From Coprothermobacter platensis DSM 11748 (GTDB lineage Bacteria > Coprothermobacterota > Coprothermobacteria > Coprothermobacterales > Coprothermobacteraceae), in contig NZ_KB899040.1 of assembly GCF_000378005.1 (NCBI RefSeq), forward strand, positions 5,163-69,162: a stretch of 64,000 nt of DNA, in the 5' to 3' direction. The position numbers were made by a program, and so were the translations under genes. Below are positions 8,825-59,886 of the stretch, piece by piece; within the stretch, counting starts at the first letter, position 1, and each line of letters opens with the position of its first letter. The notes beneath the pieces were generated by a model. That model saw nothing but the letters and a program-made list of their open reading frames with translations, searched no databases and had not been told where the DNA came from.

Positions 8825-9062
8825 ACATGATCACCTTCATACCTTGGCTACGCATTTTCTCATTTACTTCTTGGCATTCTCCTAAAAGTGCGAACTTCTC
8901 ATCTTCGCAGATTATCTGCGGTTCTATGTATTTGTCTTCGCCAGCCTTTAAAGGGGGCAGGTAAGACATACGCCTGCCCACTTTCTCACAAACCCATATC
9001 TTGCAGCCAAGCATTTGTGCCGTTTGTTTTAAGAGTGTTTCACAGTCTGACATCGTGCTCAT
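8793..9062 (-). CDS. Small six-cysteine protein between hydG and hydE
   Basis: 89 aa from the ATG at 9062 (ATG 9053 is also possible). I do not recognise a domain. It has six cysteines, in the contexts SDCE, LGCK, WVCEK, IICED, GECQ and IMCV, with a basic middle (KVGRRMSYLPP). That is a high cysteine count for its length and suggests metal or Fe-S binding, but there is no classic CX2C. It overlaps hydG by 23 nt and hydE by 32 nt, so it is locked into the maturation operon. From memory, Thermotoga maritima also has a small ORF (TM1268) between its hydG- and hydE-like genes; I could not compare sequences. GGAG lies 13 nt before the chosen start. Confidence 0.6.
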   Translation of the reverse strand: MSTMSDCETLLKQTAQMLGCKIWVCEKVGRRMSYLPPLKAGEDKYIEPQIICEDEKFALLGECQEVNEKMRSQGMKVIMCVRRHFDENN

Positions 9063-42929: not shown

Positions 42930-43571
42930 CTAAGGTCTTATTTGGCGAAGCCAATCAATCCATTCCTGCATGCCTTCACCTGTTTTCGCACTGAGCACAA
43001 ACACGCGGCAATCTTGGTTCAGAGAAGCCAAGCCTGACCTGAAGGCATTCATATCAAAATCGATATATGGCAATAGATCAGACTTTGTTACCACTACTGC
43101 TTTTGCTTTGGAAAAAATGAGAGGGTACTTGTACGGTTTGTCGTGCCCTTCGGGAATGCTCAGCACTGCCACTTTGAAATCTTCTCCAATTTCAAATTCT
43201 GCCGGACAAACGAGATTTCCCACATTTTCCACAAATAATAAACCGGGCTTAAGGTCTAAGTTTTTTAAAGCCTGTTTTATCATGTTGGCATCAAGGTGGC
43301 ATTCGCCTTCTGTGTTAATCTGAACGACTTCTACATCTTTCTTCGAAATAGTCTCTGCATCAATGGAAGATGCTATGTCTCCTTCAATTACCTGTATGTT
43401 CAGTTCATCTTTAAGTGCTTCTATGGTCTTGAGTAGAAGTGTGGTTTTGCCACTTCCCGGTGAACCGATTATGTTTATGGCAGTCACTTTGTTCTCTCTG
43501 AACAGCGTTTTGTTTTCTTCTGCTAGTTTGTCGTTTACATCAAGTATGTTCTTTACCAACTTTATTTCCAT
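42930..43571 (-). CDS. hypB: Hydrogenase nickel-incorporation GTPase HypB
   Basis: 213 aa from ATG 43571 with GAGGTG 8 nt upstream. P-loop GSPGSGKTTLL, DxxG-type and NKxD-like (TKSD) elements, and the metal-binding Cys/His of the G domain (EGECHLDAN). It lacks the N-terminal high-affinity nickel motif and the His-rich stretch seen in some HypB proteins. With HypA it loads nickel into the Ech large subunit. It overlaps hypA by 32 nt. hypC, D, E and F are not in the window. Confidence 0.95.
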   Translation of the reverse strand: MEIKLVKNILDVNDKLAEENKTLFRENKVTAINIIGSPGSGKTTLLLKTIEALKDELNIQVIEGDIASSIDAETISKKDVEVVQINTEGECHLDANMIKQALKNLDLKPGLLFVENVGNLVCPAEFEIGEDFKVAVLSIPEGHDKPYKYPLIFSKAKAVVVTKSDLLPYIDFDMNAFRSGLASLNQDCRVFVLSAKTGEGMQEWIDWLRQIRP

Positions 43572-43914
43572 CAAAACTCACCTCAATATGGTCTATATAT
43601 AGTTCTTTCCCTTTGTCTATGAGAACGCCAGGGCTTCCACATTTAGGGCATGTAAATGAGAATGTTTGGCGTTCGAACTCGTACCCACATTTCTTGCACT
43701 TTAGCACAGCGGGTACGTGTGAAAAGGAAAGCTGAGCATTTTCTGCCAACGTATCTTTCTTTATGATATCGAAATAGAAGCGGACACAATCCTCTGCTAT
43801 ACCTGTGAGCTCACCGAGGACAATACTTATCTTATCAACAGAGGATGCGCCAGCTTTTTTTGCTTCTTCTACAGCCATGTCAAGTATGGACTGTGTTACA
43901 GAAAGTTCGTGCAT
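43540..43914 (-). CDS. hypA: Hydrogenase nickel metallochaperone HypA
   Basis: 124 aa. The nickel site is the N-terminal MHEL. A zinc finger is formed by CKKC and CPKC. Acts with HypB in nickel delivery. It starts immediately after the echF stop codon. Confidence 0.96.
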   Translation of the reverse strand: MHELSVTQSILDMAVEEAKKAGASSVDKISIVLGELTGIAEDCVRFYFDIIKKDTLAENAQLSFSHVPAVLKCKKCGYEFERQTFSFTCPKCGSPGVLIDKGKELYIDHIEVSFDGNKVGKEHT

Positions 43915-44343
43915 TTACGCCTCCGCTGATGGGGTACCAGCCTCTGATTCCTTCTTCTCGTTTTCAGGCGCTTTATGATCTGCCTCAGATGGGGCCTTCG
44001 CTTTTGCAACTCTCACAGGTGGTGTCCCTCTATAAGTGCTTATGTCCTTATGATAGGCAGGCTTACGAGGTGTTTCATTCATAGTAATAGCGTGCTTAGC
44101 GCACACACTTACGCAGACACCGCATGCGATGCATTCAAACTGATTTATGTTCCACGTGCCATCGCTGGGGTTCACCGTAAGACAACCTGATGGGCATTCT
44201 CTCATACACCTCATGCAAAAAATGCACTTGTCGATATCGATTTCCACATGCCCTCTGGCACCCTCAAATGGTTCTCTGGGTTTTAGCCTTGTCACAGGGC
44301 CGTGGACCAAGTTTTCCAGAAGCCTTTTACTCATTTTAAGCAT
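43915..44343 (-). CDS. echF: Ech hydrogenase polyferredoxin subunit EchF
   Basis: 142 aa. Two [4Fe-4S] motifs: CIFCMRCMRECP and CIACGVCVSVCA. It corresponds to NuoI and takes electrons from soluble ferredoxin to the EchC cluster. After residue 115 there is a charged Ala/Glu/Lys-rich tail (SEADHKAPENEKKESEAG) of about 25 residues, which I take to be disordered and not part of the core fold. Confidence 0.92.
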   Translation of the reverse strand: MLKMSKRLLENLVHGPVTRLKPREPFEGARGHVEIDIDKCIFCMRCMRECPSGCLTVNPSDGTWNINQFECIACGVCVSVCAKHAITMNETPRKPAYHKDISTYRGTPPVRVAKAKAPSEADHKAPENEKKESEAGTPSAEA

Positions 44344-44355
44344 ATTTGCATAACA

Positions 44356-45441
44356 CTACCTTTCTGTACAACTAATGCATGGGTCAATGGTAAGAACCAA
44401 AACGGGCACGTCAGAAAGCGAACAGCCGGGCAGTATTTTGAACAGGGCTGCTATATTCGCAAACGTGGGAGTCCTAACACGCAGCCTGCTCAGATTTTTC
44501 GTGCCATCAGCTTTTATGTAATAGAGTACTTCTCCACGAGACTGCTCTACTCTGGATATGACTTCTCCCGTAGGGTTGCCTCTCACTTTAACAGCGATGT
44601 CTCCTTCAGGCATTCGTGCAAAGGCTTTTCTTATGAGGTCAATAGATTGGAATAATTCTTTCATACGTACAATCATCCGTGCATAACTGTCCCCAGCGGT
44701 TTCTACTACGGGTTCAAAATCTAAATCTTTGTAAGCTGCGTAACCGGTCATTCTGTGGTCGGAAGCAACCCCGCTAGCTCTTAACATGGGTCCTACCAAG
44801 CCCAACTCACGGGCGTCATCAGCAGAAAGAACACCTACACCTACTGTTCTTTGCTTGACTGTGTAGTCATCCTTCATAACATTATAGATTTCTCTTAGAT
44901 CTTTTTCTATGGCGTCAAGGGACTGCAGAACCCATTTTTGCATTTCTGTGTCAATGTCCCTTCGTACTCCTCCGATGACATTTACAGAAATGATGACTCT
45001 GTTTCCAGCGGTCTTGTCCAGTATATCCATGACTCTTTCTCTGATACGCCATGTTTGCATAAACAGACTTTCATAACCGAAAGAATCCGCTAACAGGCCA
45101 AGCCACAAAAGATGACTGTGCATTCTGTGGAGTTCTGCCCATATCACGCGCAAATACTTTGCACGTTCTGGTATTTCTACGTTCATTAGTTCTTCAATGC
45201 CTTGGCAGTAAGCCATGGCATGCATGCAACTACAAATGCCGCATATACGTTCTACGACGTAGATCATTTGGTTTACATCTTTTGCTTCCACCATTTTTTC
45301 TAAGCCTCTATGAACATACCCTACTGTGGGCAATGCTTCCACAACTTTTTCGTTTTCCACAACGAGTCTAAGATGGATGGGTTCTGGTAATACAGGATGT
45401 TGAGGTCCGAAAGGAATGAAACTTATATTGCTATCAGGCAT
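44356..45441 (-). CDS. echE: Ech [NiFe]-hydrogenase large subunit EchE
   Basis: 361 aa from ATG 45441 (AAGGTGG 5 nt upstream); it overlaps echD by 8 nt. Catalytic subunit. Nickel is bound by two CxxC motifs: RICGICSCMHA near residue 65 and DPCISCTER at the very end. The protein stops three residues after the last cysteine, just where a maturation protease would cut other hydrogenases, so no cleavable tail is encoded. It is homologous to NuoD. Confidence 0.96.
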   Translation of the reverse strand: MPDSNISFIPFGPQHPVLPEPIHLRLVVENEKVVEALPTVGYVHRGLEKMVEAKDVNQMIYVVERICGICSCMHAMAYCQGIEELMNVEIPERAKYLRVIWAELHRMHSHLLWLGLLADSFGYESLFMQTWRIRERVMDILDKTAGNRVIISVNVIGGVRRDIDTEMQKWVLQSLDAIEKDLREIYNVMKDDYTVKQRTVGVGVLSADDARELGLVGPMLRASGVASDHRMTGYAAYKDLDFEPVVETAGDSYARMIVRMKELFQSIDLIRKAFARMPEGDIAVKVRGNPTGEVISRVEQSRGEVLYYIKADGTKNLSRLRVRTPTFANIAALFKILPGCSLSDVPVLVLTIDPCISCTER

Positions 45442-45829
45442 TGTTTCCACCTTCTTTGTTTTCTCCTTGTTCCTTAGCTACGATTTGAATGTGTGCCATA
45501 GGGGAAAGTGGCGAATCTTCTCCAAGAAGAAACTTTCCACCGTAATCTACGACCATACCATCAATTTTTAGACCGAACATGTCTTGCATTTCATTTTCGG
45601 AAAGTACAGCGCAGAAATAAATGGAAGATATGCTTGGAATGGTCTGATTTTTGTCAACTGTTAATCTCAAATTCTCCAACTTAAAGTCTTTGTCGAAATG
45701 GTATAGGATTTCTAACTTATCATCATCTACTTCCATGCAGGTGGTTGTTACCAGCCTATAGCCATTATCATGGTAATTTTTGACTTCGGACAAAAGATTG
45801 TCTAATGTAATTTCTTTTGCTTCGATCAA
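45434..45829 (-). CDS. echD: Ech hydrogenase subunit EchD (NuoC-like)
   Basis: 131 aa. The 30-kDa-subunit-like motif is EMQDMFGLKIDG with preceding TIPSISSIYFCAVLSENE. It is a structural subunit of the hydrophilic arm. Position between echC and echE supports the call. Confidence 0.88.
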   Translation of the reverse strand: MIEAKEITLDNLLSEVKNYHDNGYRLVTTTCMEVDDDKLEILYHFDKDFKLENLRLTVDKNQTIPSISSIYFCAVLSENEMQDMFGLKIDGMVVDYGGKFLLGEDSPLSPMAHIQIVAKEQGENKEGGNNA

Positions 45830-45830
45830 T

Positions 45831-46274
45831 TTATCCCTCCTCTTTAACTACATCTTTTTGGGCAAGCTTATCAATAGCAAGCTTTATTCCATCAATGATT
45901 TGTTCAGGTCTGGCAGGGCAACCCGGTACGTAAACATCTACGGGAAGTACCTTGTCGATGCCTCCAACTACGTTATAGCAGTCTCTGAATATGCCACCTG
46001 TACAGGCACACACGCCCACAGCCACTACAACTTTTGGTTCTGGCATTTGATCATAGATATTCTTTAGAACACTTTTATTTTGCTGATTTACACTACCTGT
46101 CACCACGAGGATGTCTGCTTGCTTCGGATCTCCGACATTAACGATGCCGAATCGTTCTACATCGTACAGTGGAGTAAGGCAGCTTAGCAGCTCAATATCA
46201 CACCCATTACAACTCCCGCAATCATAATGAATGAGCCAAGGCGAACGTTGTCTCGCTTTATCTAGTAAACCCAT
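45831..46274 (-). CDS. echC: Ech hydrogenase small subunit EchC (NuoB-like)
   Basis: 147 aa. Binds the proximal [4Fe-4S] cluster: CGSCNGCDIE, GVCACTGGIF and VPGCPARPE. It passes electrons from EchF to EchE. It is short, as in other group 4 hydrogenases, and has no twin-arginine signal. AAAGGAG site upstream. Confidence 0.95.
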   Translation of the reverse strand: MGLLDKARQRSPWLIHYDCGSCNGCDIELLSCLTPLYDVERFGIVNVGDPKQADILVVTGSVNQQNKSVLKNIYDQMPEPKVVVAVGVCACTGGIFRDCYNVVGGIDKVLPVDVYVPGCPARPEQIIDGIKLAIDKLAQKDVVKEEG

Positions 46275-46328
46275 TGCTTTTTGTCTCCTTTCGGGCTACA
46301 ACAAAACAGCTTACACATTATATATCTG

Positions 46329-47189
46329 CTATCGCAAAATGTACACAACTGCTATGTTAATTGCAGCCAATACTAATCCCAAGCCATAGGAATAGGTAAG
46401 CATCCATTTTACCGTGAGCCGTGCAGTGACATTGTCTATAACAATTTCTAAAATAACTAAAAATAACGATGCAATTATGCCTAATACGATGTGTGGATAA
46501 AAGAAAAGCGTCGATATGCCCAGCAGTAGCATCAAGTCAAACCAGTGGGCGATATCTATAAGTCCAAGATATAAGCCAGAATAGTCTGTAAGCAACCCTC
46601 TAACGAGTTCTTGGTGTGCATGCTCTGAAGCGGAAAGGTCAAAGGGTGATTTTCTCATCTTTATACCCAGTACGATTACCATAACTAAAAAGAGTAGGGG
46701 AAGTTCTTCTATGAGAGGCCTGCCTTGGCTCATGATGACCGCTATGTTGAAACTGCCTCTCATAAGATACATGCCTACGATGATCAAAATCAGCAACGGT
46801 TCGTACGATAGCATCTGCATCAGCTCCCGTTGAGCTCCTACTTGGCTATAAGCTGATTTTACAGAGAGTGCTCCCACGACCAAAAAAACTGCACCGATGG
46901 ACATAACAAAAATGATCATGAGAAGGTCACTTTGGAAGGTGAACAAGACCAAGCTAAGTACAGATGAAGCCAGATAGATGAATACACTTATAACTTGGAA
47001 TTCATTTACGATAATGCGCTGTTTAGAAAAAAGCTTAAGCACATCATAAAAAGGTTGTAATATGGGTGGACCATATCTACCCTGCAAGCGGGCAGTAAGT
47101 TTTCTATCCAATCCAACTATTAGACCTCCAATAATGGGAAAAACGACCAAAGCCAGCAGTAAACGAAATACGATATTCAAAACGTTCAC
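46329..47189 (-). CDS. echB: Ech hydrogenase membrane subunit EchB (NuoH-like)
   Basis: 286 aa, about eight helices. Motifs shared with NuoH: DRKLTARLQGRYGPPILQPFYDVLKL and KMRKSPFDLSASEHAHQELVRG. Connects the hydrogenase module to the ion pump EchA. It overlaps echA by 4 nt. Confidence 0.95.
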   Translation of the reverse strand: MNVLNIVFRLLLALVVFPIIGGLIVGLDRKLTARLQGRYGPPILQPFYDVLKLFSKQRIIVNEFQVISVFIYLASSVLSLVLFTFQSDLLMIIFVMSIGAVFLVVGALSVKSAYSQVGAQRELMQMLSYEPLLILIIVGMYLMRGSFNIAVIMSQGRPLIEELPLLFLVMVIVLGIKMRKSPFDLSASEHAHQELVRGLLTDYSGLYLGLIDIAHWFDLMLLLGISTLFFYPHIVLGIIASLFLVILEIVIDNVTARLTVKWMLTYSYGLGLVLAAINIAVVYILR

Positions 47190-49099
47190 AGTATCACCAC
47201 CCCGAACATGGCAACAATAAGTACCGCAGCTGCTACGTCAAGCCACGGTGTCAATCTATTCTCTGAAATTACATCACTGAAATAGTAATTAGACACTTTT
47301 GCCTTTGGCATTTTAGTTTCTTTGCCCGCTACCTTTATCACCTTGTACTCCTGTGCAGATTCTCCAGGTGCATAGGGCATAGCATACTGATTTGACCCCT
47401 TTAAAACAACATAGCCGCCAAGAAGCGCCAAAGCCAAGGCTAAAAAAACAGGCCATAAGCTAAAACCACCGTAACTCGTTCCAATACTTCCTTCTTGAGC
47501 TATGACCCCCAAACGATGGAAGTATTCTACTACCTGAGGTGCAATAAGGCCATTAAAAATGCTTGTTACGGTAACACTTATGACGATGGAAAGCATGGCC
47601 AAAACACTTAAAGGTATTCTTACAAATGGATCACGTTTCTCATGTTGAACCACGTCTTTACTGGATGTCCTCGACAATAAGATTCCTATCCAGCGAGCGT
47701 AATAAACCACAGTAAGCGCACTCCCTATGGCAATCATGAAAACCAATAAAGGATTCTTAGCGGCTGTTTCTATCACAAGCCATTTACTCAGAAGCACACC
47801 GAAAGGCGGTAATAGCATTGTCACTAATCCAATAACGGTTATCAATGTAGTAAAGGGCATCTTGTTTATGAGACCTCTCATGTCTTCTATGTCTCTGCTT
47901 CCAATGCCGTGTTCAATGGTTCCCACACAAAGGAATAAAAGTGCTTTGGATATGGCGTGGAATATGAGTAACATAATTGCAGCAGCTACCGCTACTGGAC
48001 TGTTTATAGCTGCAGCCGATATGATAAGACCTAAATTGGCGATTGTGGAATAAGCGAGAATTTTTTTACCGTTGGACTGGCTTATGGCCATAAGAGAAGC
48101 TGTTATGAATGTGAACGCTCCAAAAATGGCGATAACGCCTGCTAACCATGATCCGTAGAAGGCTGGAACCAATCTGAGTATAAGATATACACCTGCCTTA
48201 ACCATGGTGCTGGAATGAAGCAGCGCTGACACAGGTGTAGGTGCAACCATGGCTCCCAAGAGCCAACTTTGGAATGGTATCTGTGCTGATTTAGTAAAAG
48301 CAGCTAAACACAAGAAAGCAAAAGGTAACAACAGCATGCCGCTTGCTCGATGGGAAATAAGTGTTTGTATGTCCACAGTGTTGAAAAAGTGGTAGCCCAA
48401 AATGATGCCTATAACAAACATAACGCCGCCGATGCTGTTTAACAGCAAGGCTCTCGTTGAGGACTGTTTTGCTTCCGCTGTCCTGTCATGTCCGATAAGC
48501 AAGAAAGAGCTGATGGTGGTTATTTCCCAGAAGAAATAAACCCAAATCAAGTCGTTTGAAAAAATGAGCGCATTCATAGCTCCTATAAACAGAAGCAAAA
48601 TAAAGAAAAAGCGATTCTGACGCGAAGGTCTTATCCCCTTGTGTTCTTCATCTTCTCTCATATAACTTATGGCGTAAATCCAAATCAATGTACCTACAAA
48701 AGATACGATCAAGTTCATGATTACTGATAAATGATCAGCGTATATGGGGTGCAGAACATCCAAATTTGCTCCAGAAAAATTCTCGAAAACAAACATGGGG
48801 ATAAGTTGCAAAAGTGTTAGCAAAATCAGCATAGCATTTTTCAGGGAAACCGATATGTATAGGATATAAAGGCTTAGTAGTAGGTCTCCTATAGCTATCC
48901 ATCGATCCAAATTAATGTTTCCTAAAGGATGGCCAGCAAATGTGTTGTAACCATAAACAGCGATTACGACTGAGGATGCCATCACTACGAGGGCGGTGGC
49001 AATAATTACTATGTTTCTCATCCTTTCGTTCTTCAGAAAATACACAATTACCGCTGAAATGAACGGCAATAAAACATTCAACAACAAACTAATCTGCAT
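47186..49099 (-). CDS. echA: Ech hydrogenase antiporter-like membrane subunit EchA (NuoL-like)
   Basis: 637 aa, about 16 helices. Proton-antiporter family: FFWEITTISSFLLIGHDR, FTKSAQIPFQSWLLGAMVAPTPVSALLHSSTMVKAG in two linked pieces, and HAISKALLFLCVGTIEH. It translocates H+ or Na+ as ferredoxin is oxidised. GGAGG precedes the ATG. First gene of echABCDEF-hypAB. Confidence 0.95.
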   Translation of the reverse strand: MQISLLLNVLLPFISAVIVYFLKNERMRNIVIIATALVVMASSVVIAVYGYNTFAGHPLGNINLDRWIAIGDLLLSLYILYISVSLKNAMLILLTLLQLIPMFVFENFSGANLDVLHPIYADHLSVIMNLIVSFVGTLIWIYAISYMREDEEHKGIRPSRQNRFFFILLLFIGAMNALIFSNDLIWVYFFWEITTISSFLLIGHDRTAEAKQSSTRALLLNSIGGVMFVIGIILGYHFFNTVDIQTLISHRASGMLLLPFAFLCLAAFTKSAQIPFQSWLLGAMVAPTPVSALLHSSTMVKAGVYLILRLVPAFYGSWLAGVIAIFGAFTFITASLMAISQSNGKKILAYSTIANLGLIISAAAINSPVAVAAAIMLLIFHAISKALLFLCVGTIEHGIGSRDIEDMRGLINKMPFTTLITVIGLVTMLLPPFGVLLSKWLVIETAAKNPLLVFMIAIGSALTVVYYARWIGILLSRTSSKDVVQHEKRDPFVRIPLSVLAMLSIVISVTVTSIFNGLIAPQVVEYFHRLGVIAQEGSIGTSYGGFSLWPVFLALALALLGGYVVLKGSNQYAMPYAPGESAQEYKVIKVAGKETKMPKAKVSNYYFSDVISENRLTPWLDVAAAVLIVAMFGVVIL

Positions 49100-50862: not shown

Positions 50863-50891
50863 TTGTGAAGGAATAGCGGCTGTGCTAAAAT
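50863..50891 (+). promoter_or_regulatory. Promoter of the sensory hydrogenase operon
   Basis: TTGTGA (50863-50868), 17-bp spacer, TAAAAT (50886-50891). CTGTGC directly before the -10 recurs before the -10 of the HydABC operon at 54680, a shared TRTGn-type extended -10. Confidence 0.65.
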
Positions 50892-50940: not shown

Positions 50941-51417
50941 ATGACAGTACGCTTTATTACGAGGACGGCTGTCCTTTTGGCTCTTACCGTTATATTTCAG
51001 GCTTTTCATGCTCCTCAGCTTATTACAGGTACTTTAGTAAATGCCATGCTGCTCATATCTGCCGGATTTGTCGGCACATGGTCTGGTGTTATCATTGGTC
51101 TTTTCACACCAGTATTGGCGTTCCTTTTTGGAATTATGAAGTTTCCGCCTATGATCCCATTTATCATGATAGGAAACGCTGTTTATGTTTTAGTATTTTC
51201 CAGTTTGAAGAACAAACCGGTTAGCATGGTGTTGGGCTCTGTGGTGAAGTTCTTATGGCTAAGCGCAACGGTCTACTTCATGCTTCCACTCTTCGGGGTT
51301 AAGGTTCCGGCGCTTATGGTTCAGATGTTCACATTCCCACAATTAGCGACAGCCATTATGGGCGGTGTTTTAGCGTTGATTGTGCTTGTTTTCTTGAGAA
51401 AGAATTTAGTGGAGTAG
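50941..51417 (+). CDS. ECF-transporter S-component-like membrane protein
   Basis: 158 aa from ATG 50941. The GTG at 50929 is part of the GGAGGTG site. About five or six helices; FITRTAVLLALTVIFQAF and GTWSGVIIGLFTPVLAFLFG resemble substrate-binding S components of energy-coupling-factor transporters. No EcfA or EcfT is nearby. It heads the operon containing the sensory-type hydrogenase, an association I recall from other clostridial hydrogenase clusters. Ligand unknown. Confidence 0.75.
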   Translation: MTVRFITRTAVLLALTVIFQAFHAPQLITGTLVNAMLLISAGFVGTWSGVIIGLFTPVLAFLFGIMKFPPMIPFIMIGNAVYVLVFSSLKNKPVSMVLGSVVKFLWLSATVYFMLPLFGVKVPALMVQMFTFPQLATAIMGGVLALIVLVFLRKNLVE

Positions 51418-51429
51418 GGGAAGCCTTTG

Positions 51430-51801
51430 ATGAAGTTGCGAGAAGTTCGAGACATATTGAACGCCGAAGTGATCACAGGTGAAGACGCATTGGACCAAGA
51501 GGTTTGTGGAGCATGCGGAGCAGATCTCATGAGCGATGTACTCGCCTGGTCTGGTGATAAAGGTGTTCTGCTCACCGGTTTGACAAACCCTCAGGTGGTT
51601 CGGACTGCAGAAGTAGTAGGTGACGTGAAATGTATTATTTTTGTTCGCGGGAAAACACCGAGTACAGAGACTGTGGAATTAGCGAAAAAATCTGGATTCG
51701 TGCTTATGAAATGCAAATATCCCATGTTTGTCGCTTGCGGATTGCTTTTTTCGAAAGGTCTGGTGCCACGAGATTATGGAGAGATTAGCCGCATCTTATA
51801 G
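51430..51801 (+). CDS. DRTGG-domain-like protein (first copy)
   Basis: 123 aa from ATG 51430. Small alpha/beta protein: KLREVRDILNAEVITGEDALD, then ADLMSDVLAWSGDKGVLLTGLTNPQVVRTAEVVG with SDVLAW in the place of the usual DVLA core. DRTGG domains occur in regulatory proteins and bind unknown ligands. Unlike the second copy it has four Cys (VCGACG, DVKC, MKCKY), plus one more near the end. Overlaps the next gene by 26 nt. Confidence 0.75.
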   Translation: MKLREVRDILNAEVITGEDALDQEVCGACGADLMSDVLAWSGDKGVLLTGLTNPQVVRTAEVVGDVKCIIFVRGKTPSTETVELAKKSGFVLMKCKYPMFVACGLLFSKGLVPRDYGEISRIL

Positions 51802-52222
51802 ATTGGATTACGACGTCAGAGCAAGAGACTACGTTAGTGGGGGCGAAGTATCTAGTGCTTTGCGGGCCATATTAAAACAGTTGTCGCTACCTCCAGATCT
51901 TGTCAGACGTTGTTGCGTTGCTTGCTACGAAGCCGAGATGAATATCATCATCCATTCTTTTGGCGGCCATATGTCCATTGAAATATTTCCTGATAGATTG
52001 GAGATGATTGCTCAAGACAGCGGACCTGGCATAGAAGACTTGCAGAAAGCCATGCAAGAAGGCTATAGCACGGCTTCTGAGGAAGCACGCGAAATGGGCT
52101 TCGGAGCAGGAATGGGCTTGCCAAATATCAAAGCTAACACAGACTATTTTGACATTCAAACAGGTAAAGAAGGGACGACCCTCACTATGAAAGTTCTTTT
52201 TCTTAAGAAAGAGGGTGAGTAG
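51776..52222 (+). CDS. SpoIIAB/RsbW-like ATP-binding (GHKL) protein
   Basis: 148 aa from ATG 51776. N-box EAEMNIIIHS, G1 box DSGPGI and G2 box GAGMGLPNI make a complete GHKL nucleotide site, with the compact size of anti-sigma-factor serine kinases. It is embedded in the sensory hydrogenase operon, so it may be the output partner. No sigma factor or STAS antagonist is next to it. Confidence 0.82.
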   Translation: MERLAASYRLDYDVRARDYVSGGEVSSALRAILKQLSLPPDLVRRCCVACYEAEMNIIIHSFGGHMSIEIFPDRLEMIAQDSGPGIEDLQKAMQEGYSTASEEAREMGFGAGMGLPNIKANTDYFDIQTGKEGTTLTMKVLFLKKEGE

Positions 52223-53564
52223 ATACTTGTATTACCATTCTGTAACATTAGATGAAGAAAAATGCAGAGGATGTACAAATTGTATAAAAAGATGCCCTGC
52301 TGAAGCTATAAGAGTTAGAGGCGGAAAGGCGCGCATCATTGATGAACTTTGCATAGATTGTGGAGAATGCATAAGAGCATGCCCTAATCATGCAAAGATT
52401 GCTATCACAGACAGCTGGGATCTGATGGATCGTTTCCAGTACCGTATTGCTCTTCCTGCGCCTTCTTTGTATGGGCAATTCAAGAATCCTGATATAAACA
52501 GAATCCTCACCGCACTGTTGCAGATAGGTTTTGATGATGTATTTGAAGTTGCTTTAGGTGCCGACATCATTTCTCATCTGACGCGTGAAGAGATAAATCG
52601 TGGCGATCTAAAGAAACCTGTTATAAGTTCTTCTTGCCCTGCTGTGGTGCGTTTGGTTGAAATACGTTTTCCGTCTCTCCTGGGAAACGTTTTGGATTTG
52701 TGTACACCTATGGAAGCTTCTGCCATGTTGGCCAAAGATGCGGCGCAAAAGAAAACAGGTCTCAAGCGTGAAGACATCGGAGTCTTTTTTATATCGCCAT
52801 GTGGTGCAAAAGTCACCAGTGTAAGAAGGCCTATCGGCGTGGAAAATAGTGAAGTAGATGGTGTGTTTTCTCTTACCAGTGTTTATGAAAAGATAGCCAG
52901 CAAAGTAAATCATATAGAGCATCCTCTACCTTTGAGTAAGGCGTCCATGGTGGGGGTGGCGTGGGCACGCTCTGGTGGAGAAGCGGCTGGCACCATGCTG
53001 GAGAATTCCATCTATGTGGATGGCATACAAAATGTCATAAAGGTACTTGAAGAAATAGAACTGGGCAAGATGGAGGATTTGGATTTTCTCGAAGCCATGG
53101 CGTGTGTCGGTGGCTGCGTAGGGGGGCCACTTACCGTTGAAAACAATTTTGTAGCACAGCAACGTATAAAAAGGCTTAGTGAACGCATGCAGCGAGAAAG
53201 CTTTGTAGATAAGATGACAGAACAAGAGTTGGTTGATGAAGATAAGCCTGATTTAGAAAGACTTCGCTGGAGTAGGAGTTTGGAAAGAAGTAATGCCATG
53301 GAGCTGAGTGATGACATTGGGAAAGCATTAAGTATGATGCAACAGATTGATGAAGTGCTCAAGACATTGCCCGGCTTAGATTGTGGTTCATGCGGTGCAC
53401 CCACGTGTAAGACGTTGGCGGAGGATATCGTGAAGGGGCTGGCAACGGAATATGATTGTGTTTTCATATTGAAGAATAAAATCAATGATTTGGCACAGGA
53501 ACTTAACAATCTTGCCGGAAAAACACCTCCAGTTATGGGGCAGGAAAGGAGAAAGGAGCTTTGA
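52215..53564 (+). CDS. Sensory-type [FeFe]-hydrogenase homologue (HydS-like)
   Basis: 449 aa from GTG 52215. Two [4Fe-4S] sites (C17/20/23/27 and C46/49/52/56), an H-cluster domain, and a C-terminal four-Cys Fe-S motif (C390, C393, C398, C415: LDCGSCGAPTCK). H-cluster cysteines are C141 (SSSCPA), C196 (SPCGAK) and C297/C301 (MACVGGC). The proton-relay cysteine before C141 is Ser140, and the CxGGG of catalytic enzymes is reduced to CVGGP. These traits fit sensory-type group C/D enzymes rather than a catalyst. Neighbours are signalling-type proteins. No PAS domain. Confidence 0.9.
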   Translation: MSRYLYYHSVTLDEEKCRGCTNCIKRCPAEAIRVRGGKARIIDELCIDCGECIRACPNHAKIAITDSWDLMDRFQYRIALPAPSLYGQFKNPDINRILTALLQIGFDDVFEVALGADIISHLTREEINRGDLKKPVISSSCPAVVRLVEIRFPSLLGNVLDLCTPMEASAMLAKDAAQKKTGLKREDIGVFFISPCGAKVTSVRRPIGVENSEVDGVFSLTSVYEKIASKVNHIEHPLPLSKASMVGVAWARSGGEAAGTMLENSIYVDGIQNVIKVLEEIELGKMEDLDFLEAMACVGGCVGGPLTVENNFVAQQRIKRLSERMQRESFVDKMTEQELVDEDKPDLERLRWSRSLERSNAMELSDDIGKALSMMQQIDEVLKTLPGLDCGSCGAPTCKTLAEDIVKGLATEYDCVFILKNKINDLAQELNNLAGKTPPVMGQERRKEL

Positions 53565-53909
53565 ATGGCTATGAGTATAAAAGTGAGTGATCTGCTAAAG
53601 CATAATTTCACATTAATTGCCGGGGAAGGCGGCTTGAACAAAGATGTTGACGATGTTTATATTTGTGATTTGCTAAGCTGGGTTATGGCAAAGGCGAAAC
53701 AAAAAAGTGCTTGGATCACCATTCAAAGCCATGTGAACATTGTCGCTGTTGCGTTGATGGCTGATTTAAGTTGCATCATCATAGCAGAAGGCGTAGAAGC
53801 AGAAAAAGAAACTATTGATCATGCCAATGAAGAAGGCTTGCCTGTCTTGAATTATGCGGGCAGTTCTTATGAGGCAGCCATAGAACTTTATCATCTTCTC
53901 ACAACGTGA
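53565..53909 (+). CDS. DRTGG-domain-like protein (second copy)
   Basis: 114 aa. MSIKVSDLLKHNFTLIAGEGG, then DVYICDLLSWVMAKAKQKSAWITIQSHVNIVAVALMADLSCIIIAEG in pieces matches the small DRTGG-like proteins that accompany HydS genes. The first copy shares the DLLSW/DVLAW core, so the pair probably arose by duplication. GGAG precedes the ATG. Confidence 0.78.
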   Translation: MAMSIKVSDLLKHNFTLIAGEGGLNKDVDDVYICDLLSWVMAKAKQKSAWITIQSHVNIVAVALMADLSCIIIAEGVEAEKETIDHANEEGLPVLNYAGSSYEAAIELYHLLTT

Positions 53910-54628
53910 AGGTTTACTACGATCTTCATATACACAGTGCTCTCTCTCCATGCGCATCTGATGATATGACTCCTAATAACGTCATCAATATGAGTTTGTT
54001 GAAAGGGTTGAACGTAATTGCCATAACAGACCATAATTGCGCTAAAAACGTGGAAGTGTTCATGATGTTGGGCGAACGTAAGGGATTAACAATTATTCCG
54101 GGCATGGAAGTCCAAACGAAAGAAGAAGTTCACATGCTCTGCTACTTTTATACCTTGGATGCCTGCCTTGCTTTCCAAGATATGTGGGAACGCTCGCTAA
54201 CAAGGATTCCGAACCGTCCTGACTATTTTGGCAATCAACTGATTTTGGATGAAAACGATGATGTAGTCGGTGAATATCCCCTATTACTACTTACATCTTC
54301 AGCATACAGTGTGAAAGATGTTTTCCAGCTTATAAATGGCATAGGTGTAGCAGTTTTCGCTCACGTCGATAGGTCATCCTACAGCGTACTCTCTAATTTG
54401 GGATTCATACCAAGCGATGTTCCTATAAGCAGTTTAGAAGTTTCTAAATATATTTCGCCTAAAGACTTTTTAACAAAATACCCAAATTATTCTAAATACC
54501 GCATTCTCCAATCTTCTGATGCGCATTACCTGGGAGACATTATGGAGAGAGAGAACTACTTGGAATTAGAGAACGCAGTGACAATAAGCATTAAAGACAT
54601 TTTGGATGTTTTAAAAAACGTTGCGTGA
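53906..54628 (+). CDS. PHP-domain metal-dependent phosphoesterase
   Basis: 240 aa from GTG 53906, overlapping the previous gene by 4 nt. Complete PHP metal set: DLHIHS, AITDHN, PGMEVQTKEEVH, FAHVDR and SSDAHY. Related PHP proteins hydrolyse phosphate esters or cyclic dinucleotide products. It is a constant neighbour of HydS/HydABC clusters, as I recall, but its substrate is unknown. Last gene of the operon. Confidence 0.9.
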   Translation: MKVYYDLHIHSALSPCASDDMTPNNVINMSLLKGLNVIAITDHNCAKNVEVFMMLGERKGLTIIPGMEVQTKEEVHMLCYFYTLDACLAFQDMWERSLTRIPNRPDYFGNQLILDENDDVVGEYPLLLLTSSAYSVKDVFQLINGIGVAVFAHVDRSSYSVLSNLGFIPSDVPISSLEVSKYISPKDFLTKYPNYSKYRILQSSDAHYLGDIMERENYLELENAVTISIKDILDVLKNVA

Positions 54629-54656
54629 AAATTGTATAAATCGTTGTTTAGACTCG

Positions 54657-54685
54657 TTACATAATTCACAGTACTGTGCTATAAT
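54657..54685 (+). promoter_or_regulatory. Promoter of the HydABC operon with palindromic operator candidate
   Basis: TTACAT (54657-54662), 17-bp spacer, TATAAT (54680-54685). The spacer holds a perfect 12-bp palindrome CACAGTACTGTG (54667-54678) touching the -10, well placed for a repressor dimer. The start site near 54692 gives a leader of about 78 nt with AGGAGGG. Confidence 0.65.
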
Positions 54686-54769: not shown

Positions 54770-55288
54770 ATGGAACAGCTTTATGAGCTTTTTGGCACCG
54801 ATAGAGTTGAAGAATTTAGAGCCAAGCTCGATGAGCTTAAAAATGTGCCTGGCTCAATGATCTCCATCCTGAATGAGGCTCAAGAGATTTTTGGTTATGT
54901 TCCTTTTGAAGTTCAAGAGCTCATTTCCCGGGAAACCGGCGTGCCTTTAACAGAAATCTTTGGAATCGTGACGTTTTACTCGCGTTTCAGCATTATTCCT
55001 GCGGGTAAATACAAAATTAGTTTGTGCTTAGGAACTGCCTGCTACGTAAAAGGCAGCGGACAAATTTTAGAAAAACTTGAAGAAAAATTGGGCATTAAAG
55101 AGGGCAATACTACCTCAGATGGGATGTTCTCTTTAAGTGCTGCTCGCTGCTTGGGAGCCTGCGCTTTAGCTCCAGTAATGATGATAAACGGTGAAGTGTA
55201 TGGACGATTGACGCCAGATTCAGCCGTAAAGGTGATCGAGAAGATAAAACAGCAGGATTTGTCTCAAGCTGCTTCAGAGGTTGAGTAG
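54770..55288 (+). CDS. hydC: NADH/ferredoxin-type [FeFe]-hydrogenase subunit HydC (NuoE-like)
   Basis: 172 aa. The [2Fe-2S] thioredoxin-like domain has its cysteines at LCLGTACYV and ARCLGACALAP. The helical N-terminus (GSMISILNEAQEIFGYVP) is the NuoE type. Works with HydB and HydA. Strong AGGAGGG site. Confidence 0.95.
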   Translation: MEQLYELFGTDRVEEFRAKLDELKNVPGSMISILNEAQEIFGYVPFEVQELISRETGVPLTEIFGIVTFYSRFSIIPAGKYKISLCLGTACYVKGSGQILEKLEEKLGIKEGNTTSDGMFSLSAARCLGACALAPVMMINGEVYGRLTPDSAVKVIEKIKQQDLSQAASEVE

Positions 55289-55310: not shown

Positions 55311-55901
55311 GTGAAAGAGCTGGCTTTATATATTCTCGATTTAGCGGAAAACAGCATCGCTGCGGGAGCCAAAAATATTACCATTGACGTACATGTAAAT
55401 TCCGCCAGAGATGAGTTATTCATCCGCATATCTGATGATGGCAAGGGAATGGATCCAGACTTTGTCAGAAGCGTTACAAATCCCTTCGTTACCACCAGAA
55501 CTCAACGTCGTTTGGGATTGGGTTTGCCGCTCTTTCAAGATTTGGTACGGCAGTGTGAAGGAACACTGAACATTGTTTCCGAGAAGGGAAAAGGAACTAT
55601 CATCGAAGCAAAAATGAAGCGTTCAAGCGTAGATATGGTCCCCATAGGGGACATGGGAGCCAGCATTGTTTCCATGATCATTTCCAATCCAGCATTAGAC
55701 ATTGTTTACTCTTTTGTTCTCGACGATTATTCTTTCGTGTTCGACACAAAATTGATACGCGAAACGCTTAAAGATGTAAGCATCACAGAACCTGCTGTTT
55801 TGAGCTGGATTGCTGGTTATGTAAATGAAGGAACCAAAGAGATTATCTTTGATGTAACAAAGAACATTAATAAAAACAGAGGGGGCATACAAGCATTATG
55901 A
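55311..55901 (+). CDS. GHKL-family ATP-binding protein of the hydrogenase operon
   Basis: 196 aa from GTG 55311, chosen because family members begin with KELALxILDxAxNS; GGGG lies 9 nt upstream. N-box LDLAENSIAAGA, G1 DDGKGMDPDF and G2 LGLGLPLF are intact, as in histidine kinase ATPase domains. There is no His-phosphotransfer domain, so it is not a normal sensor kinase. C-terminal half unknown. Found in many hydC-hydB intervals. Confidence 0.85.
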   Translation: MKELALYILDLAENSIAAGAKNITIDVHVNSARDELFIRISDDGKGMDPDFVRSVTNPFVTTRTQRRLGLGLPLFQDLVRQCEGTLNIVSEKGKGTIIEAKMKRSSVDMVPIGDMGASIVSMIISNPALDIVYSFVLDDYSFVFDTKLIRETLKDVSITEPAVLSWIAGYVNEGTKEIIFDVTKNINKNRGGIQAL

Positions 55902-56278
55902 GACCCGTTAAGACGTTAGAAGATCTTCAGAAAATCAGAGAAGAAGCTTCCAGAAAAGTAAATGTGAGAAGTGACAGAACGGGTATTAGGATAACGGTGG
56001 GCATGGCTACTTGCGGCATAGCGGCTGGCGCCAGACCCGTCATGATGGCCATATTAGACGAATTAGAAAAACGCAACGTTAAGGGCGTTACAGTCGTTGA
56101 GACTGGTTGCATAGGATTGTGCAAGTACGAACCCATCGTTGAGGTTTATGAGCCTGATCAAGACAAAGTTACATACATAAAAATGGACCCAGAAAAAGCC
56201 AGGCAAGTGGTCGTAGAACACGTTATCAACGGACACCCCATAAAAGAATGGACGCTTGAAAGCGCCGACATTCAGTAG
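55898..56278 (+). CDS. Thioredoxin-fold [2Fe-2S] ferredoxin
   Basis: 126 aa. Four cluster cysteines in two pairs with one odd member: MATCGIAAGARPV and TGCIGLCKYEP. The spacing between the first two Cys is altered: only one Cys is seen in the first loop, so cluster binding may be incomplete. Such ferredoxins are related to HydC and to the HydB N-terminus. Overlaps the previous gene by 4 nt. Confidence 0.85.
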   Translation: MRPVKTLEDLQKIREEASRKVNVRSDRTGIRITVGMATCGIAAGARPVMMAILDELEKRNVKGVTVVETGCIGLCKYEPIVEVYEPDQDKVTYIKMDPEKARQVVVEHVINGHPIKEWTLESADIQ

Positions 56279-56309: not shown

Positions 56310-58100
56310 ATGCTGTATAGGTCACATGTCATGGTTTGCGGTGGGACAGGCTGCACATCGTCAGGGTCTGATTCAGTCGCAGACGCATTTGTTAATGAAC
56401 TCAAGAAAAACGGTCTGGATCAAGAAGTTGCGGTTATCAGGACGGGATGTTTCGGACTCTGTGAATTGGGCCCTGTGGTTGTTGTGTACCCGGAAGGCGT
56501 TTTCTATAGTAAGATGAAACCCGAGTACGTGCCTGAAATCGTGGAAGAACATTTGCTCAAAGGCAGACCGGTTAAAAAATATCTCTTTGGTGAGACGGTT
56601 ACCGAAGAGAAAATAAAACCTTTGGAAGAAACCACATTTTATAGGAAACAAGAGCGTATTGTTTTAAGAAATTGCGGTATTATCGACCCTGAAGATATTG
56701 AAGAAGCTATTGCCATGGGTGCTTATGAGGCTTTAGGCAAAGTGCTTACCACCATGACTCCAGAACAAGTCATCCATGAGATAAAGAAATCCGGTTTAAG
56801 AGGAAGAGGCGGTGGCGGTTTTCCAACGGGGCAAAAATGGGATTTTGCCTATAGGCAGAAAGAAACGCCTAAGTACGTTGTATGCAACGCTGACGAAGGA
56901 GACCCAGGAGCCTTCATGGATAGAAGTGTCATGGAAGGTGACCCCCATGCCGTGCTTGAAGGTATGGCCATAGCTGGTTATGCCATAGGGGCCGAACATG
57001 GTGTTATATATGTGAGAGCTGAATACCCGTTGGCAGTAAAACGTCTACAGATTGCTATAAAGCAGGCTAAAGAATATGGACTGCTGGGTGAAAACATTTT
57101 TGGTACGGGATTCAATTTTGATGTGGAAATACGTTTCGGTGCTGGAGCATTTGTGTGCGGAGAAGAGACTGCTTTGTTGAATTCTGTAATGGGACGCAGA
57201 GGTGAACCTCGTCCTCGCCCACCATATCCGGCTGTCAAGGGCTTATGGGAAAAACCTACGATTATCAATAATGTCGAAACTTTAGCTAATGTCCCTGCCA
57301 TTATTAACAACGGTAGTGAGTGGTTTGCCAACATTGGCACGGAAAAATCTAAAGGAACAAAAGTTTTTGCTCTGACAGGAAAGGTTAATCGCACGGGACT
57401 CATAGAAGTTCCTATGGGCACTACCTTGAGAGAAATCATTTTTGACATCGGTGGTGGTATCCCTGATGGAAAGAAATTCAAAGCTGTTCAGATAGGTGGA
57501 CCATCAGGTGGATGCATACCTGAACAACATCTGGACACGAAAATTGACTACGATTCCCTCATCAGTTTAGGGGCCATGATGGGCTCTGGAGGTCTCGTGG
57601 TCATGGATGAAGATACATGCATGGTGAACGTAGCAAAGTTTTTCTTAGAGTTCTTGGTAGACGAATCTTGCGGGAAATGTGCGCCATGCCGCATTGGTAC
57701 AAAGAGAATGCTGGAAATTCTCGACAAGATTACTTCTGGTAAGGGCGAACCTGAAGACATCGATAGGTTGGAAGAACTGGCGACTACCATAAAAGACACA
57801 GCATTGTGCGGCTTGGGGCAAACAGCACCTAATGCTGTATTGTCTACGCTACGTTATTTCCGTGATGAGTATGATGCCCACATAAACCAGAAGAAATGTC
57901 CAGCAGGTGTATGCCAAGCGTTACTTTCTTATACCATCGTTGCCGATAAATGCCGAGGCTGCGGGCTGTGCGCACGAAATTGTCCTGTAAATGCTATCTC
58001 TGGCCAGTTGAAGCAGCCTTACACCATAGATCAAGAAGCCTGCATAAAGTGTGGCACATGCTTCGAAAAGTGCCCCTTTGACGCTGTTGTAAAAGCGTAG
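56310..58100 (+). CDS. hydB: [FeFe]-hydrogenase flavoprotein subunit HydB (NuoF-like)
   Basis: 596 aa. N-terminal [2Fe-2S] thioredoxin-like domain (CGGTGCTSSGS, TGCFGLCELGP), NuoF core with FMN/NADH site (RGRGGGGFPTGQKWDFA, CNADEGDPGAF), [4Fe-4S] motif ESCGKCAPCRIGTKRM, and a C-terminal two-cluster ferredoxin (CRGCGLCARNCP, CIKCGTCFEKCP). Complete and like the bifurcating enzymes of Thermotoga and acetogens. NADH oxidation/ferredoxin handling site. Confidence 0.97.
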   Translation: MLYRSHVMVCGGTGCTSSGSDSVADAFVNELKKNGLDQEVAVIRTGCFGLCELGPVVVVYPEGVFYSKMKPEYVPEIVEEHLLKGRPVKKYLFGETVTEEKIKPLEETTFYRKQERIVLRNCGIIDPEDIEEAIAMGAYEALGKVLTTMTPEQVIHEIKKSGLRGRGGGGFPTGQKWDFAYRQKETPKYVVCNADEGDPGAFMDRSVMEGDPHAVLEGMAIAGYAIGAEHGVIYVRAEYPLAVKRLQIAIKQAKEYGLLGENIFGTGFNFDVEIRFGAGAFVCGEETALLNSVMGRRGEPRPRPPYPAVKGLWEKPTIINNVETLANVPAIINNGSEWFANIGTEKSKGTKVFALTGKVNRTGLIEVPMGTTLREIIFDIGGGIPDGKKFKAVQIGGPSGGCIPEQHLDTKIDYDSLISLGAMMGSGGLVVMDEDTCMVNVAKFFLEFLVDESCGKCAPCRIGTKRMLEILDKITSGKGEPEDIDRLEELATTIKDTALCGLGQTAPNAVLSTLRYFRDEYDAHINQKKCPAGVCQALLSYTIVADKCRGCGLCARNCPVNAISGQLKQPYTIDQEACIKCGTCFEKCPFDAVVKA

Positions 58101-58134: not shown

Positions 58135-59886
58135 ATGGACAAAGTTACCGTAACCATCGACGGTGTTACCGTAGAAGTCCCGGCTAACTACACCGTACTG
58201 CAGGCTTGCAGGGAAGCCGGCATTGATATACCGACACTTTGCTATGCTGAAGGGCTGAACGAAATTGGTTCTTGTAGGCTCTGCGTAGTAGAGATAGAAG
58301 GAGCAAAAGCGCTGGCGGCATCATGCATTTATCCTGTTGCTAACGGCATGAAAATACATACTAATACCCCAAGAGTCAGACAAGCTCGAAAAGTTAACTT
58401 GGAGCTCATACTTTCGAACCATGATAGAAGCTGTTTGACCTGTGTAAGAAACACTAACTGCGAACTTCAAAATCTGGCAAATAGGTTTGGAGTAAGTGAA
58501 ATAGAGTTCCAAGGAGAAAACATTGATTATCCTTTAGACAACGTTTCTCCAGCCATTGTAAGGAATCCCAACAAATGCGTGTTGTGCCGCCGTTGCATCT
58601 CTGAATGCCAAAACGTGCAGAACGTGTTTGCCATAGGCGCAGTGAACAGAGGCATAAAAACCCTGGTCTCTTCGCCTTTTTATCTCAGCTTAAACGATTC
58701 ACCTTGCATAAGCTGCGGGCAATGCATAACTGTATGCCCCACCGGTGCGTTATATGAAAAGGATCACATTAGCAGGGTCTACGATGCCATAGCTGACAAG
58801 AAGAAACATGTTGTGGTTCAAACAGCCCCAGCTGTAAGGGTTGCCTTGGGTGAAGAATTCGGCATGCCCGTGGGCACTATTGTGACGGGCAAAATGGCAG
58901 CAGCTCTTCGACGCTTGGGTTTCGATGTGGTATTTGATACAGATTTTGGTGCTGATTTGACCATAATGGAAGAAGGTTCTGAACTTATCGAACGGTTGAA
59001 ATATGGCGGCAAACTACCCATGATAACTTCTTGCAGCCCAGGATGGATAAACTTCTGTGAGAAATATTATCCTGATTTCTTAGAAAATCTTTCTTCTTGC
59101 AAATCTCCGCATATGATGTTGGGTGCTGTTATAAAGAGCTACTATGCGCAAAAGATGGGTTGGAATCCCGAAGATGTGTTTGTAGTTTCAGTGATGCCTT
59201 GCACGGCTAAGAAAGTAGAAATCGAACGCCCAGAAAACATGCATGATGGTTTGCAAGACGTAGACGCTGTTTTGACTACGCGGGAACTGGCACGTATGAT
59301 AAAAGAAGCCGGCATCGACTTTGTTAATCTGCCTGATGAAGATTTTGATCAGCCACTGGGTATGTCTACTGGTGCTGCTGTCATATTTGGTGCTACCGGT
59401 GGAGTCATGGAAGCTGCGCTGCGAACGGTAAGTGAACTGGTAGAAGGTAGGCCCTTGGATAAAATCAATTTCGAAGAAGTCAGAGGCTTAGAAGGTGTGC
59501 GCGAGGCTTCCGTTACATTGGATGGCATGGAACTAAAACTGGCCATCGTTAATGGAACAGGTAACGCTCGGAAACTCCTTGATAAAATAAGAAGTGGTGA
59601 AGCAGAATACCATTTCATTGAAGTGATGGGGTGCCCTGGTGGATGTATTACAGGTGGCGGACAACCCATTCATCATCCCAATGAGATGCAGGAAGTGAGG
59701 AAACTAAGAGCTTCCGCCATTTATAAAGCAGATGAGAATTTACCGCTCAGGAAGTCACACGAGAACCCTGCCATAAAACAGATTTATGCGGAGTATTTAG
59801 GACATCCTTTGAGTGAACAGTCTCATCATCTTTTACATACCCACTATGATCAACGGCCACTTTATCGCTTTACCCATAAGGTGTAA
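58135..59886 (+). CDS. hydA: [FeFe]-hydrogenase catalytic subunit HydA
   Basis: 583 aa. N-terminal [2Fe-2S] (C36, C47, C50, C64), HX3CX2CX5C cluster (H96, C100, C103, C109), two [4Fe-4S] (C148/151/154/158; C191/194/197/201) and the H-cluster domain: TSCSPGW at 298-304, VMPCTAKK (C356), and EVMGCPGGCITGGGQP (C500, C504). A short C-terminal small-subunit segment ends at YRFTHKV. The L1 motif has Ser where most have CC. Matured by HydEFG. Makes H2 from NADH plus reduced ferredoxin in partnership with HydBC. Confidence 0.97.
   Translation: MDKVTVTIDGVTVEVPANYTVLQACREAGIDIPTLCYAEGLNEIGSCRLCVVEIEGAKALAASCIYPVANGMKIHTNTPRVRQARKVNLELILSNHDRSCLTCVRNTNCELQNLANRFGVSEIEFQGENIDYPLDNVSPAIVRNPNKCVLCRRCISECQNVQNVFAIGAVNRGIKTLVSSPFYLSLNDSPCISCGQCITVCPTGALYEKDHISRVYDAIADKKKHVVVQTAPAVRVALGEEFGMPVGTIVTGKMAAALRRLGFDVVFDTDFGADLTIMEEGSELIERLKYGGKLPMITSCSPGWINFCEKYYPDFLENLSSCKSPHMMLGAVIKSYYAQKMGWNPEDVFVVSVMPCTAKKVEIERPENMHDGLQDVDAVLTTRELARMIKEAGIDFVNLPDEDFDQPLGMSTGAAVIFGATGGVMEAALRTVSELVEGRPLDKINFEEVRGLEGVREASVTLDGMELKLAIVNGTGNARKLLDKIRSGEAEYHFIEVMGCPGGCITGGGQPIHHPNEMQEVRKLRASAIYKADENLPLRKSHENPAIKQIYAEYLGHPLSEQSHHLLHTHYDQRPLYRFTHKV

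Follow-up and report, generated by a model that had tools for sequence, protein, structure and literature searches.

A conserved gene module around a group D [FeFe]-hydrogenase in Coprothermobacter platensis as a candidate signalling set for ferredoxin:NAD(H) enzymes

A 64,000-nucleotide stretch of the Coprothermobacter platensis DSM 11748 genome (contig NZ_KB899040.1, positions 5,163 to 69,162; hereafter the window) carries six genes around a sensory-type [FeFe]-hydrogenase, here called HydS, on the + strand at 50941-54628. In order, they encode an ECF transporter S-component-like membrane protein (ECF-S), a DRTGG-type protein (DR1), a SpoIIAB/RsbW-like GHKL ATPase (HAT1), HydS, a second DRTGG-type protein (DR2), and a PHP-family phosphoesterase (PHP). 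Neighbouring genes abut or overlap (a few to 26 bp), thus making the set a tight operon. This arrangement had been described in an earlier reading made from the sequence alone (the sequence-only reading), and all six genes were confirmed; the gene calls also agree with it that no transcription factor lies within the set. The same reading placed the operon directly before hydC. Indeed, hydC is the next gene, in the order hydC-HAT2-fdx-hydB-hydA, but these genes probably constitute a separate transcription unit, because a 141-bp gap separates PHP from hydC and hydC has its own extended -10 promoter-like site, which is kept in the sister species of the same genus (G001). In our preferred explanation, for which our confidence and our doubt are about equal, the group D [FeFe]-hydrogenase acts as a sensor and is encoded with its own signal-transduction set, which tunes ferredoxin:NAD(H) enzymes.

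A scan of genome contigs returned 80 relatives with 46-65% identity, and DR1-HAT1-HydS-DR2-PHP was found in nearly all of their neighbourhoods, with genes usually overlapping or abutting. HAT1 lay immediately upstream of HydS in 73 of the 74 loci that had enough flanking sequence; DR1, DR2, and PHP were present in 71, 72, and 71 of them, respectively. In the class to which Acetivibrio mesophilus belongs (presumably Clostridia), 293 genomes were sampled, of which 142 had HydS, 142 HAT1, and 145 DR1. Both HydS and HAT1 were found in 139 genomes, neither in 148, and only one of the two in three genomes each, a co-occurrence far above chance (Fisher p 4e-76). In the three HydS-only genomes HydS lay at a contig end, and one of the three HAT1-only genomes was cut by a contig end. 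The similar sets beside clostridial hydrogenases that the sequence-only reading had mentioned proved to be nearly universal among HydS carriers. By gene order, DR1-HAT1-HydS-DR2-PHP emerges as a conserved gene module, mostly overlapping or abutting. A few loci (L numbers; G numbers denote genomes) have a HAT1-HydS pair without DR1, DR2, and PHP (L067, L090, L100, L105), and G185 has DR1-HAT1 without HydS. Since each of these pairs occurs alone, HAT1 is the hub of the module; it is also the most constant partner of HydS. The viral contigs searched contained no relative.

The ECF-S gene is present in both Coprothermobacter genomes (the host and G001). It was not found at the other module loci inspected, except for one distant riboflavin-type ECF-S in a spirochaete. 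The ECF-S gene is a local addition outside the conserved module, and its earlier inclusion in the signalling set does not hold. The spirochaete gene (L090, Spirochaetaceae, 1256-1804) lies 10 bp upstream of HAT1-HydS and is a second case, independent of the first, of ECF-S beside HydS. SPOR, CheW, and other genes found upstream were rejected as module parts, their recurrence being too low; one such CheW-domain gene lies 11 bp upstream of HAT1-HydS in L100 (9050-9517).

Table 1. Features at and around the HydS module, in window positions
Feature	Position	Strand	Basis or remark
Promoter-like site of ECF/module operon	50863..50891	+	TTGTGA-17-TAAAAT, TG before -10; consensus match only
ECF transporter S-component-like membrane protein	50941 (or GTG 50929)-51417	+	PF12822, E 4e-13
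DR1, DRTGG-type	51430-51801	+	DRTGG E 0.0016 (below Pfam cut-off) and model match to DRTGG structure
HAT1, SpoIIAB/RsbW-like GHKL ATPase	51776-52222	+	HATPase_c_2 9e-11, spIIAB 5e-12
HydS, group D (M2e) [FeFe]-hydrogenase (predicted)	52215-53564	+	Fe_hyd_lg_C 2e-36, PF04060 3e-11
DR2, second DRTGG-type	53565-53909	+	DRTGG 8e-7
PHP-family phosphoesterase	53906-54628	+	PHP 1.5e-8
Promoter-like site before hydC	54656-54685	+	GTTACA-18-TATAAT, TG before -10; kept in G001
HydC (NuoE-like) of bifurcating hydrogenase	54770..55288	+	
HAT2, second GHKL ATPase	55311..55901	+	accompanies module at Rnf loci too
2Fe-2S ferredoxin-like subunit	55898..56278	+	
HydB (NuoF-like)	56310..58100	+	
HydA, NADH-dependent [FeFe] hydrogenase group A6	58135..59886	+	NF040763, 933 bits, cut-off 765
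hydF	6544-7929	-	H-cluster maturase, above NCBIfam cut-off
hydE	7778-8824	-	H-cluster maturase, above NCBIfam cut-off
hydG	9040-10470	-	H-cluster maturase, above NCBIfam cut-off

In HydS, two N-terminal [4Fe-4S] motifs are followed by the H-cluster domain and a C-terminal FeS motif (PF04060, residues 380-412) with four Cys (C379/C382/C387/C404); a Pfam scan found no PAS domain. The reference residues for comparison were taken from PMC10407848, PMC8163306, and PMC13104023, which deal with TamHydS of Thermoanaerobacter mathranii. TamHydS numbering could be transferred, as the protein of T. wiegelii (L033) has the published TamHydS residues at identical numbers. HydS has all H-cluster Cys, and the four ligand Cys are invariant in 169 HydS sequences. 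It also carries K196 and the proton-path residues E252, E289, S249, and D265, of which E252 and E289 are experimentally tested in group D (PMC10407848). Ser occupies both the M353 position (Ser/Thr in group D) and the relay position (CpI C299). Based on K196, the proton-path residues, the Ser at the M353 position, and the four-Cys motif, HydS is assigned to group D (M2e) and is expected to react with H2. By sequence, it retains all features that H2 activation is known to require, and HydEFG, the maturases, are encoded in the window. Thus, the sensory type proposed earlier is supported by the group D residues and the H-cluster Cys, with the correction that the enzyme belongs to group D and not to the PAS-bearing group C of the TmHydS type. 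The Ser in place of the relay Cys, to which the sequence-only reading had pointed, is present but is not a hallmark, since of 84 relatives 77 have Ala at this position and only four have Ser.

HydA and HydS are the only two PF02906 proteins in the host genome (G000; 1.42 Mb, 91% complete), one of a sample with 9 genomes of Coprothermobacterota. The closest HydS relative outside the genus is that of T. wiegelii (65% identity). In the HydS tree, the window protein falls next to Thermoanaerobacter (65% identity, SH-aLRT 100), away from G007, which belongs to the same phylum as the window (33%); this placement suggests lateral transfer of HydS between thermophiles.

The GHKL ATP site of HAT1 is intact; across 170 sequences the N-box E..N, D81, and GFGAGMG hardly vary. 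The nearest solved sequences are RsbW and SpoIIAB, and HAT1 matches both the HATPase_c_2 and the spIIAB models. Such a protein could work by canonical partner switching, in which HAT1, as a SpoIIAB/RsbW-type kinase, would control a sigma factor via a STAS protein and a PP2C phosphatase, and the conserved N-box Glu/Asn would suit this role. However, the spIIAB score of HAT1 is 46 bits against a cut-off of 135, and no sigma factor or STAS gene is recurrent among the module neighbours. Furthermore, STAS (PF01740) and SpoIIE (PF07228) had no match in four Coprothermobacter-genus genomes in which control domains were detected. HAT1 shares its family and ATP-site motifs with the SpoIIAB/RsbW anti-sigma kinases, but neither the set nor the host genome has a STAS or PP2C partner. 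Since STAS and SpoIIE are missing from the genus, classical partner switching is very unlikely here, and a phospho-relay, if there is one, has to rely on components of the module itself.

The DRTGG score of DR1 (18.7 bits) lies below the Pfam cut-off (25.2 bits), and its AlphaFold2 model (pLDDT 92) matches the DRTGG protein AF1212 (2ioj, Z 17.1), CBS-pyrophosphatase (CBS-PPase; 3l2b/3l31, Z 13.3), and HPr kinase (1ko7, Z 10.2). Conserved residues of DR1 are C30, D33, S36, T50, N54, R59, R74, K76, and C104. Six of these (D33, S36, T50, N54, R74, and K76) are placed near the ends of successive strands, and the conserved polar residues look like a putative ligand pocket. DR2 scores above the same cut-off (29.3 bits); D35, S38, and N58 are invariant, W50 and T52 nearly so, and the D/S, T, and N positions are kept as in DR1. 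G007 encodes a HAT1 with two CBS domains fused to its N-terminus (L006:2760-3671, - strand), which is a Rosetta-stone hint that adenine nucleotides control the ATPase. The DRTGG fold and the CBS-HAT1 fusion point to nucleotide sensing.

The metal-ligand set of PHP is complete, H8, H10, D42, H43, E68, H76, H153, D205, and H207 being all but invariant. Its model (pLDDT 97) is closest to the PHP domain of EndoQ (Z 21.7), followed by RNase AM (15.8), 2yb1 (15.1), and CpsB/YwqE (8-9), although a fold does not prove a substrate. From its model, PHP looks more like nucleotide/nucleic-acid phosphoesterases such as EndoQ than like protein phosphatases. The phosphotransfer proposed earlier is unproven; the domain matches of HAT1, DR1, DR2, and PHP are suggestive of nucleotide, ATP, and phosphate handling. 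These data also raise a nucleotide messenger, with no protein phosphorylation: the DRTGG proteins would bind, and PHP would degrade, a redox-responsive nucleotide (e.g., Ap4A or a 3'-phospho nucleotide). The DRTGG fold is common to the Ap4A-regulated CBS-PPase, PHP is near EndoQ, RNase AM, and the AMP-bound PHP-family phosphatase 2yb1, and CBS domains are fused to HAT1 in G007. However, the module has no synthase for such a nucleotide, and this account overlaps with the sensor explanation. On its own, we regard it as improbable.

The module was earlier tied to hydABC, and this link proved too restrictive. HydABC was nearby in 49 of the 74 loci, HydB(C) without HydA in eight (six with Rnf), and neither HydB nor HydA in 17 (one with Rnf). 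In G007 the order is DR1-HAT1-HydS-DR2-PHP-RnfCDGEAB, whereas G246, G291, and G196 have DR1-HAT1-DR2-PHP-HAT2 and then RnfCDGEAB, with HydS relocated elsewhere, twice just upstream of an NqrB-F-like operon. A further Rnf-linked module locus is L220, and a Mo-hydroxylase gene lies downstream of HAT2 in L207 and L211. Gene order thus marks the module as portable between HydABC and Rnf. Given the loci with HydABC, Rnf, HydBC plus Rnf, and other redox genes, it seems to accompany ferredoxin/NAD(H) machines in general; elsewhere it adjoins no redox gene. In eight loci (L199, L208, L210, L213, L215, L218, L125, L135) the module is followed by HydC-HAT2-Fdx-HydB without an adjacent HydA and then by RnfC (RnfCD or more). 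This arrangement may be an NADH module that a hydrogenase and Rnf have in common. An apparent NqrF after PHP in L167, L169, L173, L177, L183, and L188 was not counted. In the two cases inspected (L167, L188), PyrD/PyrE-like genes follow the NqrF-like gene, which resembles a PyrK subunit.

K196 corresponds to CpI K358, which contacts a cyanide ligand at the diiron site. All 95 HydABC-linked HydS proteins retain it, whereas among the other 74 it is replaced by Arg in 14 and by Gln in one (Fisher p 2e-6, kinship not corrected for). All K196R proteins are also E252Q. Lineages with the module at Rnf or at HydBC plus Rnf, or with a relocated HydS beside Nqr, usually show both changes, which lie around the diiron site. 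The TamHydS variants E252V and E252D, both different from the natural E252Q, lose H2 oxidation (PMC10407848). In the HydS tree, the loss of K196 needs four changes, of which two are forced by starred branches. At the loci lacking K196 and E252, HAT1, DR2, and PHP keep their conserved residues, as DR1 does for the most part, which argues for a regulatory rather than a catalytic role. The signalling set would thus outlive the H2 reactivity of its sensor. As HydS in several lineages lacks residues needed for H2 oxidation, the H2 part of the earlier H2/redox-signalling label is too narrow.

These variants also bear on whether HydS simply serves metabolism, as an ordinary hydrogenase or as an electron-transfer subunit that supplies HydABC or Rnf, with the small proteins assembling or stabilising it. 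HydS does adjoin electron-bifurcating or Rnf complexes, and some loci have HydBC without an adjacent HydA but with HydS. However, the module persists in several lineages after the loss of H2-oxidation residues, and a GHKL ATPase with two DRTGG proteins and a PHP protein corresponds to no known assembly set. TamHydS, moreover, has a low activity of about 0.1 umol H2 per mg per min (PMC10407848). We therefore consider a metabolic role unlikely.

The absence of HydG from about 31 HydS-bearing genomes of the class was rejected as general evidence for an H-cluster-free HydS, because HydA is encoded in most of these genomes and HydF or HydF-like matches are present in some; annotation is known to miss HydG (PMC9431212). 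HydG, HydF, and catalytic HydA were not found in G007 or G008, both draft genomes, and these two remain a suggestive hint of an H-cluster-free HydS. A contig of G007 (C200, L014) also has a second sensory-type hydrogenase fragment; it lacks the relay Cys and lies about 0.3 kb from the gene for a Rex-like redox repressor. C30 and C104 of DR1 (window 51514-51516 and about 51736-51738) are conserved in the H2-competent loci. At the 15 loci lacking K196, position 30 is never Cys (126 of 141 elsewhere) and is Phe or Trp, while C104 is replaced by Ser in 12. Covariation of DR1 C30 with HydS K196 was not established, the tree giving only two supported independent pairs.

In the sensor explanation, H2 or reduced ferredoxin would first alter the redox state and shape of HydS, which would then bind HAT1 and gate its ATP binding or its ATPase/kinase activity. 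DR1 and DR2 would bind an adenine-nucleotide-type ligand, be phosphorylated as targets of HAT1, or both, and HAT1 would thereby integrate redox and energy state. PHP, as a metal phosphoesterase, may hydrolyse the nucleotide or phosphoryl group and reset the signal. The output, probably via HAT2 or the DRTGG proteins, would tune the amount or activity of the adjoining ferredoxin:NAD(H) machine, here HydABC. We infer all of these steps, the output included, and the output on HydABC is the least certain.

Several points weigh against this explanation. At the 17 loci without HydB and HydA nearby, the target may lie elsewhere. The partner proteins are known here from sequence and models, and gene linkage alone does not prove signalling. 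The putative DRTGG pocket is read from secondary structure and conservation. In its model, PHP comes nearest to the domain of a DNA endonuclease (EndoQ, Z 21.7), with protein phosphatases at Z 8-9. The association with several redox complexes rather than one, the C-terminal PF04060 FeS motif of HydS, and the presence of two GHKL ATPases (HAT1 and HAT2) would also fit an ATP-driven activation or repair, in which HAT1 couples ATP hydrolysis to reactivating, by a conformational or a redox change, flavin or FeS sites of HydABC or Rnf and HydS serves as electron donor. However, this leaves DRTGG and PHP unexplained, and we know of no precedent for GHKL ATPases in reductive activation; we hold it to be distinctly improbable. 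Returning to HydS as a sensor, we raise tentatively, and with more doubt than belief, that the module represents an undescribed class of redox signalling. A hydrogenase-derived Fe-S protein would drive a SpoIIAB-like ATPase, two DRTGG receptors, and PHP, with no PAS, histidine kinase, response regulator, or STAS. Together they would tune the ferredoxin:NAD(H) node. The system would work with H2 at HydABC and have evolved H2-blind forms (K196R/E252Q) at loci linked to Rnf or Nqr; there, FeS redox state would be all that HydS senses.

In the regulatory [NiFe]-hydrogenase HoxBC/HoxJ, a low-activity hydrogenase senses H2 through a partner with a GHKL ATPase domain. The present system differs in being [FeFe], and its module lacks both a response regulator and the dimerisation/phosphoacceptor domain of a histidine kinase. 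The modelled fold of DR1 is that of the DRTGG parts of CBS-pyrophosphatase, AF1212, and the HPr kinase N-terminus. In contrast to these, DR1 and DR2 stand alone, with no pyrophosphatase or HPrK domain; DR1 has the conserved C30/C104, and CBS occurs in the module only in the G007 HAT1 fusion.

The group D HydS, its position upstream of bifurcating hydrogenases, and a kinase-like neighbour have already been published (PMC8163306, PMC3561251, PMC3608648). TamHydS (PMC8163306, PMC10407848, PMC13104023) resembles the window HydS in its domain order, E252/E289/S249/D265, C-terminal four-Cys cluster, position upstream of a bifurcating hydrogenase, and HATPase neighbour. What sets the window HydS apart is Ser at the relay position, where Ala is usual, and an ECF-S gene in front. 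TamHydS has low activity and its secondary structure changes with H2 (PMC13104023, PMC10407848), and the 2026 study names missing interaction partners as a key gap (PMC13104023). The available passages of the TamHydS literature do not describe DRTGG and PHP partners. The PAS-bearing group C (M2f) HydS proteins (TmHydS, HfsB; PMC10055695, PMC11837493) share the two N-terminal [4Fe-4S] motifs, H-domain, and C-terminal FeS motif, as well as a proposed sensory role and adjacent hydrogenase genes; the hfs operon also has the Ser phosphatase-like HfsC. In contrast, the window HydS has no PAS after the C-terminal FeS motif, and its partners are DRTGG, a SpoIIAB-like ATPase, and PHP. Full-text searches, with most subscription papers outside their coverage, turned up no publication that connects these hydrogenases with DRTGG or PHP proteins. 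Thus, the sensory hydrogenase and its kinase neighbour were known before; the DRTGG/PHP module, its portability, and the apparently H2-blind variants were not in the literature searched.

Strict genomic linkage provides candidates for the HydS signal relay, HAT1 first, then DR1, DR2, and PHP. Natural controls are offered by the loci with HAT1-HydS only, with DR1-HAT1 only, and with an apparently H2-blind HydS beside Rnf or Nqr. Since about half of the sampled Clostridia-class genomes carry the module, it may govern the choice of fermenters among H2, NADH, and reduced products.

In the promoter-like site ahead of the ECF/module operon, the -10 region and the next 30 bases downstream are nearly identical in G001. 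Inside the hydC promoter, the stretch between -35 and -10 contains the perfect palindrome CACAGTACTGTG, which was dropped as an operator because G001 lacks it. About 2 kb from the HydS module, a Complex-I-related membrane operon on the - strand (42930-49099) encodes NuoB-, NuoD-, NuoH-, and NuoL-like proteins and a ferredoxin-like protein. Its large subunit retains the RICGIC and DPCISC motifs, and it therefore appears to be a group 4 membrane-bound [NiFe] hydrogenase.

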